In this document: positions 3,936 through 41,670 of the stretch, in pieces
How positions within the stretch are numbered: the first letter of the stretch is position 1
Layout of the letters: the number at the start of each line of letters is the position of its first letter
Assembly (NCBI GenBank): GCA_012270795.1
Contig: JAAXHO010000180.1
Span: 1 to 45,872, forward strand
DNA from: Candidatus Poribacteria bacterium
GTDB lineage: Bacteria; Poribacteria; WGA-4E; WGA-3G
DNA length: 45,872 nucleotides
Direction of reading: 5' to 3'
The notes under the pieces: model-generated
Databases searched by the model: none
What the model was told of the DNA's origin: nothing
Seen by the model: only the letters and a program-made list of their open reading frames with translations
Program-made: the position numbers and the translations under genes

Positions 3936-3969
3936 CGTCTGCTGAAATCTACTGCATTTGGATGTCGCT

Positions 3970-4011
3970 CTTACAGAAGAGGTGTATAATTATTTTCAAA
4001 CTTCACCATAG
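3970..4011. repeat. Solo end of a dispersed MITE
   Basis: About 40 bases here (core GGTGTATAATTATTTTCAAA, then CTTCACCATAG) match the terminal inverted repeat of the complete MITE at 20079-20316 with a few mismatches. No partner end or core is present, so this is a truncated or solo copy. It lies at the start of a 513-base gene-free stretch (3936-4448) that is filled almost entirely by small repeats. Confidence 0.65.
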
Positions 4012-4038
4012 TTTAGTGACGTTTAGTTAAAGTTAAAA

Positions 4039-4189
4039 AATACAACATTCGGTTTGACGTGAATATATGGGATTTTCATATACGGTAAGGTTTTTAATCC
4101 CAAGAACACAAACCGAATCCCAAATACAAAGGATCTGGGTAACGGCAAAATGCACGGATCTGACACTATTAGGTTAGTTGAATAGATTC
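4039..4189. repeat. Dispersed ~150-bp structured repeat, copy A
   Basis: The stretch is close to 90% identical by eye to 28386-28538. Both copies contain an outer inverted repeat (ATTCGGTTTG at 4047-4056 with CAAACCGAAT at 4109-4118), an inner stem (GGGATT at 4069-4074 with AATCCC at 4096-4101) and a conserved 3' part with GGATCT twice around AACGGCAAAATGCA. Stem sequences are conserved while the apical loop varies, which fits a folded RNA or a hairpin-based mobile unit. No coding potential is visible and I do not recognise a known RNA family. Confidence 0.7.
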
Positions 4190-4233
4190 CTAACTTATGC
4201 ATTCCCCTTACCAGTGGGTCTTTAAGAGAAAAT

Positions 4234-4341
4234 GCGTAAGCCCTGAATATAATAATTTAGTTTATTATAACCACACTAAGGTTTGGACAGTTTCTGTCTG
4301 TTTCATGTTGTGTTCTCAAGTATTTCTATCAGGACTTACGC
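4234..4341. repeat. Small inverted-repeat element (MITE-like)
   Basis: GCGTAAGCCCTGA at 4234-4246 and TCAGGACTTACGC at 4329-4341 are inverted copies with one mismatch in 13, bounding about 108 bases of AT-rich non-coding DNA. The size and ends fit a miniature inverted-repeat transposable element; no second copy was found in the window. Confidence 0.5.
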
Positions 4342-4358
4342 AATGTATATTCAAAAGT

Positions 4359-4413
4359 CCCCTGATAAGGGGTAAATAACTAAAATAACGACTTTTTACC
4401 CCTTTATCAGGGG
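4359..4413. repeat. Long imperfect hairpin upstream of the secreted protein gene
   Basis: CCCCTGATAAGGGGTAAA (4359-4376) pairs with TTTACCCCTTTATCAGGGG (4395-4413), an 18-bp stem with one bulged base and an 18-base loop. It lies about 35 bases before the start codon at 4449. It could be a repeat element, a terminator for leftward or rightward transcripts, or an mRNA leader structure; there is no U-tract after it. Confidence 0.5.
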
Positions 4414-4448
4414 GAGCATAAGTCTTATAATTTAGAGGAGGTTTCATT

Positions 4449-6290
4449 ATGCCTACACAAATTAAAACCAATTTTTTGTTTTTCACGTTTACATTGTTGA
4501 TGTGTCTCAATTCCTTGTTCTTAATGAAAACTGCTGCACAAGACAACATTGAACCCGTTGTCGCCCCCACCGACTCCAACTATACCTTTGAAAGTATTGA
4601 AGTTCCGGGTGTAGACTTTTTAGCAGTGACCGCCAGCAGCGACTTCGAGGACTATGCAGGCTACACAAAAAGTGCGGATGGTGAAAAAATGGTCGCCTTT
4701 ACGCTCATTGACGGCGTTTTTACGACCTATGCTTTCCCCAACGCAGAGAACACCTATTTCTACGCGCTCGGTAATGATGGTTGCGCTGCCGGACATTACC
4801 AAGACAACGAGGGGGTCTATCACGGTGTTATCTTGGAAAAGGGTGTGCTTACGCAACACGATTTCCCCGGTGCTGTGGAAACGGAGATATATGGGATTTC
4901 TGACGAAACAGGCGCGCTGACAGGGAATTTCACAGACGCTCAGGGGGTGCGTCGTGGGTTCACCGGCGATACCGTCATTGAAGCCCCGGGTGCCTCGGAG
5001 ACCTTCGCTGACTTTGTGGCTGCGGGTCGACTCGTGGGGAGTTACGTCGATGTTAAGGGACTTTATCACGGATACATACATACGAACGGCCAATTTACAT
5101 CTATCGACTTGGAAGATGCCGAAAACCTTGAATACTATTTTTTCCATGCGATCAACACTGCGGGGATTTTCGTTGCCCGCTCCAAACGGATCGGGGATGT
5201 CCCGCGCACCTACATCGGCTCAGCACGTGGGAGCTCTGAATTACAGGTGCCGGGCAGCGTCAGCACGGAGGGCTGGAATATCAATGAGGACGGCTCTGTC
5301 GTCGGGACCTATGTCTCCTCCGATGGACGCAGACACGGTTTTATCGCAAGACCCGCTACCCAGGTAGTGAGCGATCATTTTGGTAATGTCTTCAATGTCA
5401 CATTGACGAAAGGTTTGAACATGCTTTCTCTGCCTTTAGCACCACCAAAACCGATGACCGCAAAATCCCTTGCAGGAATAACAGGCGCGACTGTTGTCAT
5501 AGCACTTGATGCCGCAAATCAACGTTTCATGGGCTGGACACCAGGCGCACCTAACGATGGATTTACAATTGAAGGTGGACAAGGCTATATCGTCAATGTC
5601 CCACAAACTCGTAACTTCGCCTTCGTCGGTGCACCATGGACAGATCAAACCGAGGCTGCTGCAGCACCCGCAATAACTAAAAAGATGTCCCATGCCGTGT
5701 GGGCATTCGTTGTCAGCGGAAACTTAGATAGCATCCAATCTGCTAATGGTTACACCGTCAAAGTACAAAACCTGAGAACGAACACTGTCATGACGGCTCG
5801 GGTACACAGTAATTACTTCGCTGCCGCCACAGCAGATCTCAGTTATCGCAGTGTTGTTGAAGCAGGTGACAAAATAGAAATAACCGTTACTGATACGAAC
5901 GGAAATATTGTGTCAGAAAAATTCAATTTCACGGTAAATGCAACACATCTTGAGAACGCTGTTATGACTGTGAAACTTGACGGTATCGGATCCCCAAAAC
6001 GGAGCCAGCTTCTGCAGAATTATCCCAATCCGTTTAACCCTGAAACATGGATTCCGTATCATCTTGCAGAAGCAGGGGTTGTTTCTCTCTCTATTTATGA
6101 CGCTTCAGGTAAACTTGTCCGAACATTTTCACTTGGTCACAAACCAGTAGGTTTCTATCAAAGCCGTGGAAACGCTGTTTATTGGGACGGACGAAATACG
6201 TTGGGTGAAGCAGTTGCAAGTGGTGTCTATTTCTATCAACTGACAACGCCTACATTCCAGCAGATACGACGACTCGTCATCTTGAAGTAG
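4449..6290 (+). CDS. Secreted beta-propeller-like protein with C-terminal FlgD/sorting-type domain
   Basis: This is a 613-aa exported protein of unknown function. A signal peptide covers about residues 1-32. Residues about 45-300 contain repeated short units of the type GxYxDxxGxYHGY and GFxxxxGxFTxIxxPxA, resembling extracellular HAF-type repeats and probably forming a beta-propeller. A middle region (about 310-510) looks like Ig-type or cohesin-like beta domains. The C-terminus (about 520-613) has NYPNPFNPETWIPYHL followed by a FlgD-like Ig fold ending in RRLVILK, like secretion or sorting domains of type IX-like systems and common in Poribacteria. The start is supported by GAGGAGG at 4435-4441. 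The propeller part is visibly more GC-rich than both flanks, suggesting domain transfer. Confidence 0.82.
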   Translation: MPTQIKTNFLFFTFTLLMCLNSLFLMKTAAQDNIEPVVAPTDSNYTFESIEVPGVDFLAVTASSDFEDYAGYTKSADGEKMVAFTLIDGVFTTYAFPNAENTYFYALGNDGCAAGHYQDNEGVYHGVILEKGVLTQHDFPGAVETEIYGISDETGALTGNFTDAQGVRRGFTGDTVIEAPGASETFADFVAAGRLVGSYVDVKGLYHGYIHTNGQFTSIDLEDAENLEYYFFHAINTAGIFVARSKRIGDVPRTYIGSARGSSELQVPGSVSTEGWNINEDGSVVGTYVSSDGRRHGFIARPATQVVSDHFGNVFNVTLTKGLNMLSLPLAPPKPMTAKSLAGITGATVVIALDAANQRFMGWTPGAPNDGFTIEGGQGYIVNVPQTRNFAFVGAPWTDQTEAAAAPAITKKMSHAVWAFVVSGNLDSIQSANGYTVKVQNLRTNTVMTARVHSNYFAAATADLSYRSVVEAGDKIEITVTDTNGNIVSEKFNFTVNATHLENAVMTVKLDGIGSPKRSQLLQNYPNPFNPETWIPYHLAEAGVVSLSIYDASGKLVRTFSLGHKPVGFYQSRGNAVYWDGRNTLGEAVASGVYFYQLTTPTFQQIRRLVILK

Positions 6291-6452
6291 TAATACCATT
6301 TCTAATTGATAATGTCTCATTAACTGATAGGGATATGGTAGGAGCGACCTCCGGGTCACGACCGGGAGGTCGCTCCTACCGAAGAGAAGTACCCCAACCA
6401 GCAATAACAGTGGAATTCCTTAATGAGACAATATTTTTTAGAATTGGTATAA
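6291..6452. repeat. MITE with IS630-like ends and REP-like hairpin core
   Basis: The ends are inverted copies about 33 bases long: TAATACCATTTCTAATTG... on the left and the reverse complement of ...TTTAGAATTGGTATAAG on the right, both running into TGTCTCATTAA. In the middle a 16-bp perfect stem (6337-6352 with 6365-6380) has the sequence GGTAGGAGCGACCTCC. The left end matches that of the decayed IS630-like element at 41424-41670, so this is probably a non-autonomous derivative mobilised by such a transposase. It starts immediately after the TAG stop of the preceding gene. It fills the first part of the 529-base gap before 6820. Confidence 0.75.
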
Positions 6453-6463
6453 GAAAAAATACC

Positions 6464-17604: not shown

Positions 17605-17765
17605 CAGAGGCATTCAATTGTCGATTTAGCGCAGAATCTAACATAGGATTCTTAAGGTAGGAGCGATCTCTGGTCGCGACCAAAGGTCGCTCCTACAGAA
17701 GATAGGGAATATTCGGGGTTAGGAACCCCTCCAACAAGGATGCTTTGGACAATTGAATGTCTCTG
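17605..17765. repeat. MITE with REP-like core (161 bp)
   Basis: CAGAGGCATTCAATTGTC (17605-17622) and its inverted copy GACAATTGAATGTCTCTG (17748-17765) differ by one base. Inside are a 40-base palindromic unit GTAGGAGCGATC...GGTCGCTCCTAC (17657-17696) and a small hairpin GGGGTT-AGG-AACCCC. It occupies most of the non-coding gap 17533-17829. Confidence 0.75.
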
Positions 17766-20033: not shown

Positions 20034-20078
20034 TTTAATTGCAATTAATCATCCAGTATTTTTTTGATGAAGATTAAC

Positions 20079-20316
20079 TATGGTGAAATATGGAAATAAT
20101 TATACACCTTACTTGTAGGAGCAACCCGGGGAATGCCATAAGGCATTCATACCGTTGATTTCTGGTCGCGACCAACAAATCAAGGAATCAACGGTATGAA
20201 TCATGGCGAATCATGTAGAATACCATACGCGTATTCTACCAAGCGCATTCGCCCAACGGCATTCCCCGGGTTGCTCCTACAAGTAAGGTGTATAATTATT
20301 TCAATTATTCACCATA
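20079..20316. repeat. Complex nested-palindrome MITE (238 bp) between ABC transporter genes
   Basis: The outer inverted repeats are about 55 bases (TATGGTGAA..., TTATACACCTTACTTGTAGG, AGCAACCCGGGGAATGCC and the mirror), nearly perfect. Inside are further hairpins: GAATGCC-ATAA-GGCATTC; a 16-bp stem ATTCATACCGTTGATT with AATCAACGGTATGAAT around the palindrome GGTCGCGACC; and GTAGAATAC-CATACGC-GTATTCTAC nested in GGCGAAT/ATTCGCC. The same inner parts occur at 21861-22059. No gene is encoded. Confidence 0.85.
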
Positions 20317-20352
20317 AATAACCTTGACCAGTAGATTATTGTAAAAATACGC

Positions 20353-21860: not shown

Positions 21861-22059
21861 TTATAATGAATTCATTGAAATAATTTACACATCTTCTGTA
21901 GGAGCGACCTTTGGTCGCGACCAACAAATCAACGGTATGAATCATGGCGAATCATGTAGAATACCATACGCGTATTCTACCAAGCGCATTCGCCTTATGG
22001 CATTCCCCGGGTAGCTCCTACAACTCAGAATGTAGAATTAATTGTATAATCTACTATAA
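21861..22059. repeat. MITE related to the 20079-20316 element
   Basis: The element shares with 20079-20316 the palindrome GGTCGCGACC, ATCAACGGTATGAATC, GTAGAATACCATACGCGT and the GGCATTCCCCGGGTAGCTCC end. Its 5' half is shortened, lacking the GGAATGCC hairpin arm, so the left REP-like part (TGTAGGAGCGACC) joins directly. The outer ends are more diverged. It fills the gap before the methyltransferase gene. Confidence 0.75.
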
Positions 22060-28220: not shown

Positions 28221-28352
28221 ATGGCAGCAGCAGCAAAACGCAAACAGAAACTTGAAGCTGAGTTGGAAAAACTTCGTACCCAACTCGCTAATGGACAAAA
28301 AAACGCTTTTCTAAACAAAACTATAGTAATTTTTAGGTTGACATTTTTTTAA
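28221..28352 (+). CDS. Very small coiled-coil peptide (43 aa)
   Basis: From ATG 28221 (TTAGGAAA eight bases before) runs an open frame of 43 codons with a charged Ala/Lys/Glu helix (RKQKLEAELEKLRTQLANG) and an unrelated hydrophobic tail ending at TAA 28350-28352. It may be a real small protein or the 5' stub of a larger gene cut off by the repeat insertion that follows. The last codons overlap a promoter at 28338. Confidence is low. Confidence 0.3.
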   Translation: MAAAAKRKQKLEAELEKLRTQLANGQKNAFLNKTIVIFRLTFF

Positions 28353-28366
28353 ATCAATATTATAAT
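28338..28366 (+). promoter_or_regulatory. Perfect sigma70 promoter before structured repeat copy B
   Basis: TTGACA (28338-28343), exactly 17 bases, TATAAT (28361-28366). The predicted start lies near 28373, just ahead of the structured repeat at 28386. It could drive a small RNA from the repeat or the downstream chaperone operon from 28721. Confidence 0.75.
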
Positions 28367-28385
28367 TTCGTGATGTTTGTTAAAT

Positions 28386-28538
28386 AATACAACATTCGGT
28401 TTGACGTAAATTTCAGGGATTTTCGTATATGATAAGGTTTTCAATCCCAAGAGCACAAACCGAATCCCGAAAACGAAGGATCTGAGCAACGGCAAAATGC
28501 ATGGATCTGACACTTTATAGGTTAGTTGAATAGATTCT
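28386..28538. repeat. Dispersed ~150-bp structured repeat, copy B
   Basis: This copy matches 4039-4189 over its full length with the same outer stem (ATTCGGTTTG / CAAACCGAAT), inner stem (GGGATT / AATCCC) and conserved 3' part; differences fall mostly in loops. It is part of a 368-base non-coding stretch between 28353 and 28720 that also holds a pair of short repeats. Confidence 0.7.
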
Positions 28539-28556
28539 ACCGAACCCTGAATTTGT

Positions 28557-28630
28557 AGCACCAGCGGTGCGAAAGGTGTATAGAAACGTAAATGCATTCA
28601 GTAACCAAGCACCAGCGGTGCGAAAGGTGT
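28557..28630. repeat. Two direct copies of a 22-23-bp hairpin repeat
   Basis: The unit AGCACCAGCGGTGCGAAAGG plus TGT occurs at 28557-28579 and 28608-28630. GCACC-AGC-GGTGC inside it is a five-pair hairpin. Copies are 51 bases apart. The unit resembles short REP-like repeats; only two copies are visible. Confidence 0.8.
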
Positions 28631-28720
28631 TGAAAAAACAATACAAACGAAAACTGTCCAAACTACAGTAAACAAGAGAGGATTTATGAAAATAGAAAAG
28701 CAATATTAGGTTGTTAAGAT

Positions 28721-29575
28721 ATGATGGTAATAGAATTATTTGTTTATGTCACCATAGCATCTATGATGATAGTTTGCGTAAACGTTTTGAAAAAAAGTGG
28801 AATTGTAAAGAAATCCGATTATAATTATTTCTATATTCTGCTATTTCTAATTCTTACGCAGATTGTATTCACGATTATTCAGAATCTTGTATTGACTTCA
28901 TCACAGATACAAGTTTTTAAACCTACCATGACCCCGATCTATTTAGGAACAATACTCGCCCTAACTCTTTTGTATGTTATAACACGAATTACAGTGTCAT
29001 CCATTGAAACCCAAGAAGATGCACGCGTCTGGATAGGATGGGCAATGTTTCTTGTATTGGCGGCAGGTTTTTGTGCATTATTGATAGGACTCCCCGATAC
29101 AAAAACTGATCTATATAGAATACCTTTTGCATTTGCATTGTGTGTTGGTATGATATACTATCCGACTGTTTTTGATCGGTTGTCCATATTGAAGGGTGCT
29201 GCTGAAGAGCGAACGATTGAAAAGAGTGTAGAAGGACACAAAGAGTCTGTAATTAACTTAGCTATTGAATCGTGGCGTTTTGCAAAAAATTATGAACGTA
29301 TGTTAACACGACTCAATACTAATCAGACAAAACGGTATACAAGGCAGTTACAGCAATTTGTAAAAAAGACTGAGGAATCCCTTTTGGATGTTGGTTTACG
29401 TGTGGTGAATGTTGAAGGTTATCCCTATGATCCAGGTATGGCGGCGACACCACTTAACATTGAAGATTTTGCCCCAGACGATCATTTAGTAGTCGATCAA
29501 ATGCTGGAACCAATTATTATGGAAGGGACGGTTTTAGCAAAAACAGGAACAGTTATTTTAAGGAGAAAAGATTAA
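28721..29575 (+). CDS. Five-TM membrane protein with GrpE-like C-terminal region
   Basis: The first half of this 284-aa protein is membrane-embedded, with about five hydrophobic segments (roughly 2-24, 37-58, 70-92, 102-122, 130-147). The second half is cytoplasmic: a helical stretch (VNLAIESWRFAKNYERMLTR, then QLQQFVKKTEESLLDVGL) followed by a beta-rich tail GYPYDPGMAATP ... DHLVVDQMLEPIIMEGTVLAKTGTVILRR. The tail order (helix, Gly-x-Pro-(Y/F)-DP, then the v-D-q-m-L-x-P sheet) mirrors the GrpE beta-domain, so it may act as a membrane-bound nucleotide-exchange factor for the Hsp70 encoded next. Its stop TAA overlaps the ATG of the Hsp70 gene by one base, indicating coupling. The GrpE likeness is inference by eye. 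Confidence 0.65.
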   Translation: MMVIELFVYVTIASMMIVCVNVLKKSGIVKKSDYNYFYILLFLILTQIVFTIIQNLVLTSSQIQVFKPTMTPIYLGTILALTLLYVITRITVSSIETQEDARVWIGWAMFLVLAAGFCALLIGLPDTKTDLYRIPFAFALCVGMIYYPTVFDRLSILKGAAEERTIEKSVEGHKESVINLAIESWRFAKNYERMLTRLNTNQTKRYTRQLQQFVKKTEESLLDVGLRVVNVEGYPYDPGMAATPLNIEDFAPDDHLVVDQMLEPIIMEGTVLAKTGTVILRRKD

Positions 29576-30585
29576 TGGAGAATTTTGTCGGTATTGATTT
29601 AGGAACAACGAACAGTGCTATATGTACTTTCGATAAAGAAACACAACAAACTCGAGTTTGGAAAAGTCCCGAAACGAATGATGTAACACCATCTGCGATC
29701 TATATTGACAGGCGTGGAAATGAATATGTGGGGCAAAGAGTCTATGACGCTGCACCGCGCAGTCCAGATAATTGTGCGGCATTATTCAAGCGTTTTATGG
29801 GAACAAACACACCAATTGAATTGTCTGCGGTTGATAAGACCTTTACACCAGAGGAATGTTCTACCAAGATACTGAAAACAGTATACGGTTTCCTTCCAGA
29901 AGAAATAAGAAATTCTCCAGATACAGGCACTATCATTACTGTTCCTGCAGCCTTCAATCAGATGCAGAAAAATGCAACGATGACAGCTGCTGAAATGGCA
30001 GGAATTGGCAAAGTTGAACTCGTGCAGGAACCAGTTTCAGCTGTGATGAGTTTTATGAAAACCAGTGGTGGAAAGGATGGTATCTTTTTGATCTATGATC
30101 TTGGTGGTGGCACACTGGATATTGCTATTGCAGAAAGTATCAGAAAACGTGTAAGTATCCTTGCACACGGAGGCATTCAAATGTGTGGTGGACGAGATTT
30201 TGACCGAACTCTTGTTGACAATATAGTTCGACCATGGCTCAATGAGAATTTTGATCTGCCTGATGACATATCTATTAATCCAACATTTAAAACACTCCTA
30301 CGTCTTGCTACGTGGGCAACTGAAAAAGCGAAGATAGAACTCTCATCAAAAAATGAAGCGATGATTAGTCTATCTGAAGTTGAAATCCGGACCAATGATC
30401 TAAATGGTGACGAGATTTATCTTGAGATTCCTTTGAATAGAAACACTTATGACGCATTGATTGAAGATCAGATCGCCGAAACGATAGATGCAGCCAGGGA
30501 AACACTTTCAAAAACTGGATATACGCCTAATGATATATATCAAATATTGTCTGGGTTGGAGGTCCCACACATTACAAACCGTTAA
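29575..30585 (+). CDS. Divergent Hsp70 (DnaK-like), nucleotide-binding part; frame lost at 30553
   Basis: This is the actin-fold ATPase of an Hsp70-type chaperone. The first phosphate loop is VGIDLGTTNSAI (residues about 4-15), the connect and second phosphate region YDLGGGTLDIAI around 179-190, and TVPAAFNQMQ around 122. The frame runs to a false stop at 30585 (ending VPHITNR). One base missing in the G run at 30553-30555 explains this: reading the next frame from there gives GVGGPTHYKPLRDKVAFELG, the expected adenosine-binding motif of Hsp70. The complete gene would span 29575-31670, about 698 aa. The start ATG overlaps the stop of the membrane gene upstream. Confidence 0.85.
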   Translation: MENFVGIDLGTTNSAICTFDKETQQTRVWKSPETNDVTPSAIYIDRRGNEYVGQRVYDAAPRSPDNCAALFKRFMGTNTPIELSAVDKTFTPEECSTKILKTVYGFLPEEIRNSPDTGTIITVPAAFNQMQKNATMTAAEMAGIGKVELVQEPVSAVMSFMKTSGGKDGIFLIYDLGGGTLDIAIAESIRKRVSILAHGGIQMCGGRDFDRTLVDNIVRPWLNENFDLPDDISINPTFKTLLRLATWATEKAKIELSSKNEAMISLSEVEIRTNDLNGDEIYLEIPLNRNTYDALIEDQIAETIDAARETLSKTGYTPNDIYQILSGLEVPHITNR

Positions 30586-32144: not shown

Positions 32145-32294
32145 ATGTCGGTATTGAATTATCACAATGAAAATTATGTCGGTATTCACTTAGGAACAAC
32201 GAACAGTGTTATTTCCATTTACGATACAAAAAGAAAGATTGCATCGGCGAAACCTATTATTCAAGACTTATCCGGGAAAAGACCTATTACATAA
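32145..32294 (+). pseudogene. Relic of a second Hsp70 (N-terminus only)
   Basis: An open frame of 49 codons contains NENYVGIHLGTTNSVISIYD, clearly the first phosphate loop of an Hsp70 and nearly identical at DNA level to 29575-29630 (shared ATTTAGGAACAACGAACAGT-type stretch). The Asp of DLGTTNS is His here. It ends at TAA 32292-32294 after DLSGKRPIT, and the rest of the Hsp70 is gone. The deletion joins it to the beginning of the next paralogue. Confidence 0.75.
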
Positions 32295-33501
32295 TCCCTT
32301 TTATATTTTAGAAGTGACACAGCGAGATAACAAGCAAAGGATTATAGAGCAAGCAGAAGAACAGAGTCTATTATCAGATCCCGAAAAATGTCAGAATTTA
32401 CAGAATACGCTGATATTTCCCCGAAAACGTATATCTGCTGAGATAGCATGGTTGCCCGGTGTGAGTCCAAATCGTGTTAATGACACCTTGTTGTTATTTG
32501 AAACATCTGCAGGAAATCGTACTGGCAATTCAAAGGTAACGTCTTTCGCTTCAAATGATTCACTCGTTTCTGTATTATTACGTATACCTTATGCAGAGTC
32601 AGAAACCTTAGCAGACGAAGTCTTGGAATCATTAATTTCACCTGATCAACATTCAAAGAAAGAAGATAACATTGTGGAAATCAGCAAGTTTCTCGGATTT
32701 GATAAACTGATCCCTATTGCACGTGCTAACTTACTTGCTGCTCGGATGTTACGTTTGCCAGATTATACACCTGACATAGTTGTCAAGGGGATATTTGCAA
32801 TTGCTCAAACTTATGATAAAATTAATCCGTCAGAAGTACGTGCAGTTCTCAATGATGAACGCCAACAGTCAGGATTTCCAGAAATTACGCATCTTTCAGA
32901 TATAAAAACAGCAATACAAGATATTAGACACTATTACAAACAGGTTATCAAGTTTGTTCTGGAAAGTATTTATACTGTGAAAGAACGAGCTCAAACTGTC
33001 ATGACAATAGTTGAATCTGCAACCGAAAATAATCCATCCAATTTGCCAATATTAATTGAAGATGCAATTGATTCCTATGAGGATATTGCTCAGACATCTC
33101 TTGTAAAAGAGGAAAAAAAGATTGAGGAATATGACAAAAAACTGCGAATTGCTGCGGAGAATGAGGAACATGAATCGACTTTTTCGCGGACGGTAGACGG
33201 TTTAAATGATACTGTCAAAGATTGGGTTATCATAGCACAACCTATTCAAATAAATAAACGCAGAAGAGGTTTAAAACATGCTGCAAGTCATGATATATCG
33301 GAAAGGGTTCGCCTATTAGCCATTTTCCTGTTTAATGAATATGACAAGCTTAATTCCTCGCAAAAAATCTTAAATACGTTAAATAAAGTGTTCTCAGAGT
33401 TCCCTGAGATTACAGAACGTATCACTGCTGATCTTGAAACACTTAATAAAATTTCTCAACAACGTGAAAACAATTCACAAGTATCACTTTTTGATAATTG
33501 A
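32206..33501 (+). CDS. NPFxIL/J-domain-like protein, paralogue 1 (start fused to Hsp70 relic)
   Basis: From about residue 26 this protein (DLLHNPFYILEVTQRDNKQR) aligns with the protein starting at 33520 (DLLKNPFHILGATTRDDKIR), including RISAEIAWLPGV. The module recalls a J-domain (helix II, helix III and an Ala/Leu-rich part) but has no HPD tripeptide. The body is helical, with TVMTIVESATENNPSNLPIL and a C-terminal region DTVKDWVIIAQPIQINKRRR shared with the paralogue. The true start is uncertain: the first 25 residues come from out-of-frame Hsp70 relic DNA. GTG at 32206 has AGGAA nine bases before it and is the best available start. The natural start, equivalent to that at 33520, has been lost by the deletion. 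Confidence 0.65.
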   Translation: MLFPFTIQKERLHRRNLLFKTYPGKDLLHNPFYILEVTQRDNKQRIIEQAEEQSLLSDPEKCQNLQNTLIFPRKRISAEIAWLPGVSPNRVNDTLLLFETSAGNRTGNSKVTSFASNDSLVSVLLRIPYAESETLADEVLESLISPDQHSKKEDNIVEISKFLGFDKLIPIARANLLAARMLRLPDYTPDIVVKGIFAIAQTYDKINPSEVRAVLNDERQQSGFPEITHLSDIKTAIQDIRHYYKQVIKFVLESIYTVKERAQTVMTIVESATENNPSNLPILIEDAIDSYEDIAQTSLVKEEKKIEEYDKKLRIAAENEEHESTFSRTVDGLNDTVKDWVIIAQPIQINKRRRGLKHAASHDISERVRLLAIFLFNEYDKLNSSQKILNTLNKVFSEFPEITERITADLETLNKISQQRENNSQVSLFDN

Positions 33502-40214: not shown

Positions 40215-41423
40215 ATGTCTATTTTAGCAATCAATGGCGGTGAACCGATCCGAACGAAACCTTATCCAACATGTCCCACACTTGATCCTGCAGACATAGA
40301 AGCCTTTGAAAGCATTTATAACAGCAAACGATGGGGAGTTAGCGGTTCAAAAGTTCCCGAATTTGCAAAGCAATTTGCCGAATTCCAAGGTGCAAACTAT
40401 GGTGTGTGTGTCAATAGCGGCACAACCGCACTCTACGTGGCATTGAAAGCTGCAGGCGTAGGACCTGATGATGAGGTAATCACCACCCCATACACCTTCC
40501 AAGCGACCATCGTTGCAATTCTTATGACACACGCCAAACCTGTCTTTGTGGACACTGCACCGGACAGTTTTCTCATAGATGTTTCCAAAATTGAGGATGT
40601 AATCACCGATAAGACAAAAGCAATCCTACCTGTTCACATTGCAGGTTACCCCGCAGATTTAGATGCACTTGTTGATATAGTCGAAAGGCATAATATCAAA
40701 CTTATTGAGGATTGCGCGCAAGCACACGGGGCAGAATGGCGAGGAAAAGGTGTCGGAAGTTGGGGACATTTCGGGTGTTTCAGCTTCCAAACTTCAAAAA
40801 ACCTCTGTGCTGGAGAAGGTGGAATCGTTCTCACCAACGACAGAGAACTCTATGAACGCGTATATGCATTACATAACTGCGGACGCACACCTCCTGAAGC
40901 CAAATTTGGAAATGTAGAATCCTTCGGTGGAAACTTCAGAATGACTGAATGGCAGGCAGCCCTACTGCTCTCACGCTTGACGCGCCTTGAAGATGAAACA
41001 AACTACAGACACATGAATATGCGTTGGTTAGACGGTTGGTTTGGTGAAATTCCCGGGATAAAAGTCACACGACTAGATCCCCGCGCTACACGCTGCGGTT
41101 CTCACGGATACAAAGCAATCTTTGATTCTGAAGAATTTGATGGTATCTCCCGTAAGACATTCCTTGACGCAATACGTGCTGAAGGCATCCCCATGGGGTA
41201 TTGGTACACAACACCAATGTACCGTGCTTCATTTCTAAAATCTAACCTTTTTGGGCAAAACCTTGACTATTCCAATGTTCACTGTCCAGAAACTGAAAAG
41301 ATATGCCAAACCGGACTCGCCCTAAGTCAAAACATCTTGCTCGGTACAGAAGAGGATATGGAAGACATCATTAAAGCCACAGCCAAAATCCGCAGAAACG
41401 TTGGTGAATTAATGGATGAATAG
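40215..41423 (+). CDS. DegT/DnrJ/EryC1/StrS-family aminotransferase
   Basis: This is a 402-aa PLP-dependent sugar aminotransferase or dehydratase. Family motifs are SGTTALYVALKAAGVGPDDE, VHIAGYPADLDALVDI, LIEDCAQAHGAEWRGK and FSFQTSKNLCAGEGGI, the Lys in TSKN being the PLP-binding residue. The donor substrate (nucleotide sugar or an inositol-type ketone) is not evident. It begins 17 bases after the DUF402 gene. Its TAG stop touches the end of a decayed insertion element. Confidence 0.93.
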   Translation: MSILAINGGEPIRTKPYPTCPTLDPADIEAFESIYNSKRWGVSGSKVPEFAKQFAEFQGANYGVCVNSGTTALYVALKAAGVGPDDEVITTPYTFQATIVAILMTHAKPVFVDTAPDSFLIDVSKIEDVITDKTKAILPVHIAGYPADLDALVDIVERHNIKLIEDCAQAHGAEWRGKGVGSWGHFGCFSFQTSKNLCAGEGGIVLTNDRELYERVYALHNCGRTPPEAKFGNVESFGGNFRMTEWQAALLLSRLTRLEDETNYRHMNMRWLDGWFGEIPGIKVTRLDPRATRCGSHGYKAIFDSEEFDGISRKTFLDAIRAEGIPMGYWYTTPMYRASFLKSNLFGQNLDYSNVHCPETEKICQTGLALSQNILLGTEEDMEDIIKATAKIRRNVGELMDE

Positions 41424-41670
41424 TAATACCATTTTTAATTGATTATATGACATTAGCGGCTTCTATAAAAAATGAAAATCCCGTTATTTTTGCCATCATT
41501 TCTGCTGAATAAGTGTGAAGTATCTCTGTTATTTTTGCCTGCATATCCTCAAGTGTTTCGTATACTTGGCAAAACAACTTTGCTTTTAGGTCTTGCCATA
41601 GTCTTTCAATCGGGTTCAACTTCATTTCTAACAGCCGGTAACGAGAGAAAATTTAATTGAAATAGTATTA
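41424..41670. mobile_element. Internally deleted IS630-like element
   Basis: The left end TAATACCATTTTTAATTG and the right end, whose reverse complement is TAATACTATTTCAATTAA, are inverted copies. Between them lies the C-terminus of an IS630-type transposase on the minus strand. IS630 elements duplicate a TA dinucleotide, and TA is present at both ends. The left end also matches the MITE at 6291-6452. Confidence 0.8.
41443..41625 (-). pseudogene. IS630-family transposase, C-terminal fragment
   Basis: The fragment begins MKLNPIERLWQDLKAKL, the DDE transposase C-terminal signature of IS630/Tc1-mariner enzymes that holds the last catalytic Glu. The first two acidic residues and the DNA-binding domain are absent, so it is inactive. 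Confidence 0.8.

Follow-up and report, generated by a model that had tools for sequence, protein, structure and literature searches.

The repeat at two places in the window, a 45,872-nucleotide stretch of a Candidatus Poribacteria genome (contig JAAXHO010000180.1), is most probably a mobile promoter with a structured 5' leader that is kept as an expression cassette. We give this reading a probability of about 0.68. It is the simplest account to cover the conservation of the promoter, the orientation of the copies, the choice of genes behind them, the ancestral position and the empty sites. The evidence comprises sequence, synteny, covariation, orientation statistics and sites that are empty in a sister species.

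We aligned the two window copies (4039-4189 and 28386-28538), and they showed 88-89% identity across ~150 nt at the positions where the sequence-only reading had placed them. A search of the window's own genome (G000) with the repeat gave 40 matches, the best with an E-value of 5e-74, far above chance. This genome is a fragmented MAG of 5.18 Mb in 298 contigs, and many copies lie at contig ends. Copies had been suggested for collection from the genome and its relatives, and a covariance model of the 3' half found 45 in G000, 14 in the nearest sister species (G013) and 0 to 2 in each of the remaining sixteen genomes of the genus. The ~150-bp repeat described at first is real and dispersed, but alignment of the copies with their flanks showed that the full unit is larger, with a promoter upstream and ~100 conserved nt, including a further G+C-rich hairpin, beyond the noted 3' end in other copies. 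The unit consists of a sigma70-type promoter (TTGACA-N17-TATAAT) and, behind it, a leader of ~230 nt containing four hairpins (H1 to H4). Truncated copies and mosaics also exist within the family. The features in the window are as follows.

28336-28556, plus strand: copy 2 of the cassette (promoter plus leader), covering consensus positions 1-221.
28338-28366, plus strand: promoter of copy 2, with TTGACA at 28338-28343, a 17-nt spacer and TATAAT at 28361-28366.
28721-29575, plus strand: gene downstream of copy 2, an ORF of 284 aa for a putative membrane protein (hydrophobic N-terminus), with an HSP70-like ORF behind it.
4008-4192, plus strand: copy 1 of the cassette, consensus positions 27-204, with the -35 region replaced and another repeat in place of the 3' strand of H4.
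4190-4249 (end approximate), plus strand: short palindromic repeat abutting copy 1, CTTATGCATTCCCC...ATGCGTAAG, of the AGGACTTACGCA terminal-repeat type.
4449-6290, plus strand: gene downstream of copy 1, a 613-aa ORF with an N-terminal signal-like segment (MPTQIKTNFLFFTFTLLMCLNSLFLMKTAAQ).
3958-6453, no strand assigned: 2.5-kb module of copy 1 and the 613-aa gene, absent from the matching site in G013.

Copy 2 is the older one, since its 5' end is also found at the matching site in G013 (contig C154:11-70). An 82-aa minus-strand ORF across copy 2 (28349-28597) was discarded as a mechanical ORF only. Immediately 3' of copy 2 lies a tandem AGCACCAGCGGTGCGAAAGGTGT repeat (28557-28586 and 28608-28637), and related sequence is frequent in most genomes of the genus. 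Further behind copy 2 are two neighbouring HSP70/DnaK-like ORFs (29575-30585 and 32206-33501) whose start regions are 81% identical. Elsewhere in the window, several palindromic GTCGCTCCTACAG... repeats form long inverted pairs (20054-20341, 21891-22028 and 17671-17703).

In the aligned copies the promoter-like TTGACA-N17-TATAAT sits ~28-35 nt 5' of the outer stem. Among the 51 copies long enough to judge, 29 matched TTGACA/TATAAT at 12 of 12 positions and 36 at at least 11 of 12, compared with ~0.1 and ~0.4 copies, respectively, expected from shuffled segments. The promoter of copy 1 is not intact, its -35 region being lost. In 30 near-full copies the minor-base frequency was 0.017 in each hexamer and 0.105 in the 17-nt spacer, so the hexamers are about six-fold less variable, and just 0.4% of the alternative placements with this shape were equally invariant. 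This is the pattern that selection on a used promoter would be expected to leave; descent from a few conserved master copies could contribute to it.

The outer 10-bp stem (H1) and the inner 6-bp stem (H2) were found in both window copies, as had been proposed. The helices lie at the following positions.

28394-28465, plus strand: H1 of copy 2 (28394-28403/28456-28465) enclosing H2 (28416-28421/28443-28448).
28478-28508, plus strand: H3 of copy 2, the covarying helix of 10 bp (28478-28487/28499-28508).
28520-28558, plus strand: family-wide core GGTTAGT and H4 of copy 2 (28528-28536/28550-28558), the 3' strand of H4 being decayed here.
4047-4118, plus strand: H1 of copy 1 (4047-4056/4109-4118) enclosing H2 (4069-4074/4096-4101).
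4131-4161, plus strand: H3 of copy 1 (4131-4140/4152-4161).

The description of conserved stems and a variable apical loop holds, since the mean minor-base frequencies of the stems in 29 copies from G000 (0.017 for the outer and 0.034 for the inner) are below those of the unpaired core (0.118) and the apical loop (0.139). The 3' part, on the other hand, had been taken to be single-stranded and instead contains the 10-bp hairpin H3 and the 5' strand of H4. H3 is kept while its sequence changes: among 20 leaders and copies, 12 have U-A and 6 have C-G at one pair, and at another 11 have C-G, 7 A-U and 2 G-U. Overall, 89.5% of the cells in this helix were paired, and two pairs showed 6 and 9 double changes. 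The covariation score of H3 was higher than in all 500 shuffles and fell from 0.262 to at most 0.097 when the partner strand was slid by 1-3 columns. The folding energy of H3 was -12.6 to -13.5 kcal/mol (z of -3.4 to -4.6), and that of H4 was about -11 to -12 kcal/mol. The 3' strand of H4 is often decayed among the dispersed copies. Comparison between species supports the predicted RNA fold. Covariation, which the sequence-only reading had named as a check, was thus seen for H3 between orthologs but not among the dispersed copies: the 29 copies alone gave no compensatory covariation beyond shuffles, and it is therefore the low variability of the H1 and H2 stems that suggests selection on the folded RNA after dispersal. 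The search of Rfam, also proposed at the outset, found no credible match for the repeat. The scan of the window matched only a tRNA, a permissive-threshold scan of four other copies gave nothing credible, and at the gathering threshold there was likewise no match to the repeat. The leader RNAs would represent a family that is absent from Rfam 15.

Relatives carry a divergent form of the leader, in single or low copy, across the host family. Its core, GGTTAGT...GAATAGATT...CCCTGAATCTG, was found in most of the genomes of the same GTDB family that were searched, mostly with 80-94% identity over ~50 nt; matches at E≤0.01 were obtained in 47 of the 83 relatives searched, some of them short or marginal. 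When 84,980 species genomes were scanned for the core pattern, it occurred only in records named Poribacteria. In front of orthologous genes the order of promoter, leader, Shine-Dalgarno sequence and ATG is conserved. The ATG lies 90-140 nt 3' of the core and opens secreted proteins beginning MxLSNK..FSL.., or truncated remnants of them. Proteins of the donor type have ~940-1360 aa, a signal-like segment and lamin-tail (PF00932; LTD) or Big_12 domains (Pfam). At loci without the protein gene, the first codons of that gene usually still follow the leader, which argues that the leader belongs to the secreted-protein gene and not the reverse. The window's own genome has an ortholog as well (G000:C176:6904-7126), followed by a gene for a 1080-aa secreted protein, with a dispersed-type copy directly upstream of the ortholog. 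Judged from sequence and gene order, the repeat in its ancestral form comprises the predicted promoter and untranslated 5' leader of a gene for a secreted lamin-tail/Ig-like protein. The repeat had been described as not explained by any gene; this does not hold, as the ancestral form is a gene leader and the dispersed copies stand in sense before genes.

At three loci of other Poribacteria (L099, L100 and L106), the leader, in some cases with the first codons, is kept and the body of the lamin-tail gene is gone or replaced, as if the gene body were often swapped or lost behind a constant leader. At three further loci (L116, L117 and L118, in G014, G002 and G008, respectively), two tandem leaders ~600 nt apart precede one lamin-tail gene, and between them lie a Shine-Dalgarno sequence and a truncated gene-like start. 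Keyword searches of poribacterial genome and transcriptome papers turned up Ig-like repeat proteins that have signal peptides or membrane helices, and no mention of intergenic sequence, repeat sequences, riboswitches or non-coding RNA.

We called the genes around 63 copy groups in G000 and G013 with a home-made codon-based caller. The next downstream gene was on the same strand as the copy in 45 of 47 cases (p=1.6e-11 against 50:50), compared to 34 of 55 for the upstream gene. The 45 downstream genes on the same strand fall into 29 gene families, and the 45 copies are not all independent since some were co-duplicated with paralogous genes. A strongly hydrophobic N-terminus was predicted for 29 of these 45 genes, as opposed to 86 of 305 in the background set and 39 of 117 among genes with a 5' gap of their own (p=6e-4 for the latter comparison). 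The remaining 16, e.g., RadC-like and sigma-factor-like genes (named from the N-terminal sequence only), have no such N-terminus. Copies of the 3' half without a promoter were also in sense orientation (6 of 6), so the promoter alone does not explain the sense bias, and this hints that the leader itself is worth keeping.

Two sites with target duplications, for which a check had been suggested, bear on how the cassette moves. Upstream of the RadC-like gene, a 3'-half copy forms an insertion of 362 bp that ends in AGGACTTACGCA/TGCGTAAGTCCT and is accompanied by a duplication of 5-7 bp, and the G013 site is uninterrupted. At C176:22609, an insertion of ~487 bp that is absent from G013 carries a promoter-degraded cassette as cargo; it has ATACCATTTCTAA ends and a TA/TAA duplication of 2-3 bp. 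Terminal repeats and target duplication together with an empty site were observed at these two sites only. In the sister species G006, ATACCATTTCTAA ends lie on both sides of an IS630-type DDE_3 transposase (L311); most of the IS630-type transposase loci examined do not have them. Many copies end at AGGACTTACGCA-type repeats. A matched pair of either tested repeat type was absent from most full-length copies, and the ends vary from copy to copy. The cassette and the gene behind it differ jointly between G000 and G013 at 3958-6453 of the window (the 613-aa gene) and at loci L222 and L238. The sequence-only reading had considered a hairpin-transposed element; mobility is supported, but as cargo of transposon-type terminal repeats and not by its own hairpin. 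Candidate terminal repeats of the cassette itself (GTTGACATTT at the 5' end and GTTAACATTT in the 3' tail) were too short for a claim. Repeats resembling ATACCATTTCT(A/T)ATTGAT, of the same terminal-repeat type as at C176:22609 and at the G006 transposase, also occur in the window at 6288-6322 and 41421-41455.

The repeat could instead be a selfish MITE, a non-autonomous transposon that inserts near gene starts with the promoter and hairpins as passengers without host function. Such an element would have the terminal inverted repeats and target duplications of the two sites, the frequent AGGACTTACGCA-type ends, and the truncated and mosaic copies. However, neither random nor gene-start-biased insertion would give 45 of 47 copies in sense, the promoter hexamers are kept while the spacer drifts, and the sequence was a family-wide conserved leader before it dispersed. 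We therefore regard a selfish element as quite improbable, and the plain MITE that had been offered as the fallback is not supported either. Regarding the small RNA family that had also been proposed, a structured RNA is supported but a free-standing ~150-nt RNA has little support. In its fuller form this alternative posits a discrete, trans-acting RNA of ~190 nt that ends at H4 and a U-rich stretch, with the gene behind it incidental and the copies raising the dose. The perfect promoter, the compact structure, the U-rich sequence after the ancestral H4 (TTCTTGATTTTT) with its folding energy, and the persistence of the leader in several genomes where the protein gene is truncated or lost are consistent with it. 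H4, however, is A+U-rich and would be a poor terminator, and its 3' strand is often decayed or, as in copy 1, replaced; moreover, the model has no place for the orientation bias toward the downstream gene. Because of the weak, often decayed H4 and this unexplained bias, we rejected a free small RNA as the main reading and consider it very improbable.

The leader could also be regulatory (an attenuator, riboswitch-like or protein-binding) and, by refolding of H3 and H4, put a regulon of exported proteins under the control of a sensed signal; this is a special case of the main explanation and not wholly opposed to it. The near-invariant core across genera, the covariation of H3 and the common leader before ~45 genes would fit. 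On the other side, we recognised no conserved alternative pairing and no terminator/antiterminator pair by eye or by folding, Rfam gave no match, and H3 was not recognised in the sister genus though the core was. Such a sensor is unlikely in our view.

Under the mobile promoter-plus-leader reading, the source is the promoter and the structured, untranslated 5' leader (~230-330 nt) of a gene for a secreted lamin-tail/Ig-like protein, which sequence and synteny show to be conserved through one family of Poribacteria. In G000 and its sister lineage, promoter and leader, without the start codon, would have been captured between transposon-type terminal inverted repeats. The captured cassette would then have been scattered to ~45 sites, with empty sites shown for two copies and gains or losses of cassette-plus-gene modules for others. 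By the statistics above, copies are kept in sense and usually lie no more than a few hundred nt 5' of a gene, and these genes are enriched for products that are exported or anchored in the membrane. RNA polymerase would start at the copied TTGACA/TATAAT and read through the folded leader into the gene behind, and the cassette would thereby affect expression and presumably benefit the host. By analogy with slpA-type leaders (PMC6482533), the 5' hairpins, with H1 ~20-30 nt after the presumed start, would most likely stabilise the message or tune translation.

Putative mobile promoters have been reported before (Matus-Garcia et al. 2012, Nucleic Acids Res 40:10032; van Passel et al. 2014, Genetics 197:291; cited in PMC8049555). 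Like the cassette, they are described as promoter-bearing repeats upstream of unrelated genes in one genome; the cassette differs in its long structured 5' leader, identified source gene, transposon-type ends and empty sites, and in the enrichment of the genes it serves for exported proteins. IS630/Tc1-mariner-type MITEs share with the cassette insertions the terminal inverted repeats, the small target duplication and the lack of an internal transposase. The cassette differs from them in being carried inside such repeats, and also inside repeats of a second type, in pointing the same way as the genes, and in its origin from a cellular leader. Since its structured leader is long and comes from an identified donor gene, and since it has no constant ends of its own, the cassette is not simply a mobile promoter or a MITE. 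It works like the former and travels like the latter. Leaders of S-layer genes, e.g., slpA of Lactobacillus, combine a strong promoter and a long folding untranslated leader with a large exported surface protein (PMC6482533). The ancestral leader resembles the slpA leader in layout, and by this analogy the cassette leader may stabilise its message. To our knowledge, slpA does not spread its leader. Correia elements of Neisseria and BOX elements of pneumococcus are dispersed intergenic repeats that carry promoters and can influence neighbouring genes. The cassette is likewise dispersed and intergenic; we know of no derivation of Correia or BOX elements from an identified leader of a conserved gene.

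Earlier evidence for mobile promoters came mainly from the repetition of sequence. In this case the donor gene and the amplified product are identifiable, as are the transposon-type ends, the empty sites in a sister species and the non-random recipient genes, and the predictions can be checked in existing sponge metatranscriptomes. If confirmed, the cassette would be an example of a mobile 5' leader that rewires regulation, in a phylum that is uncultured and associated with sponges. A bolder and doubtful extension is that the transposon-spread leader builds a regulon, giving scattered genes, most of them for exported proteins, a shared fate after transcription (in stability, signal response or membrane targeting). 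If that were true, the promoter-less 3'-half copies would act likewise, and the bacterium would recruit genes into a surface-protein programme by the insertion of an RNA leader.
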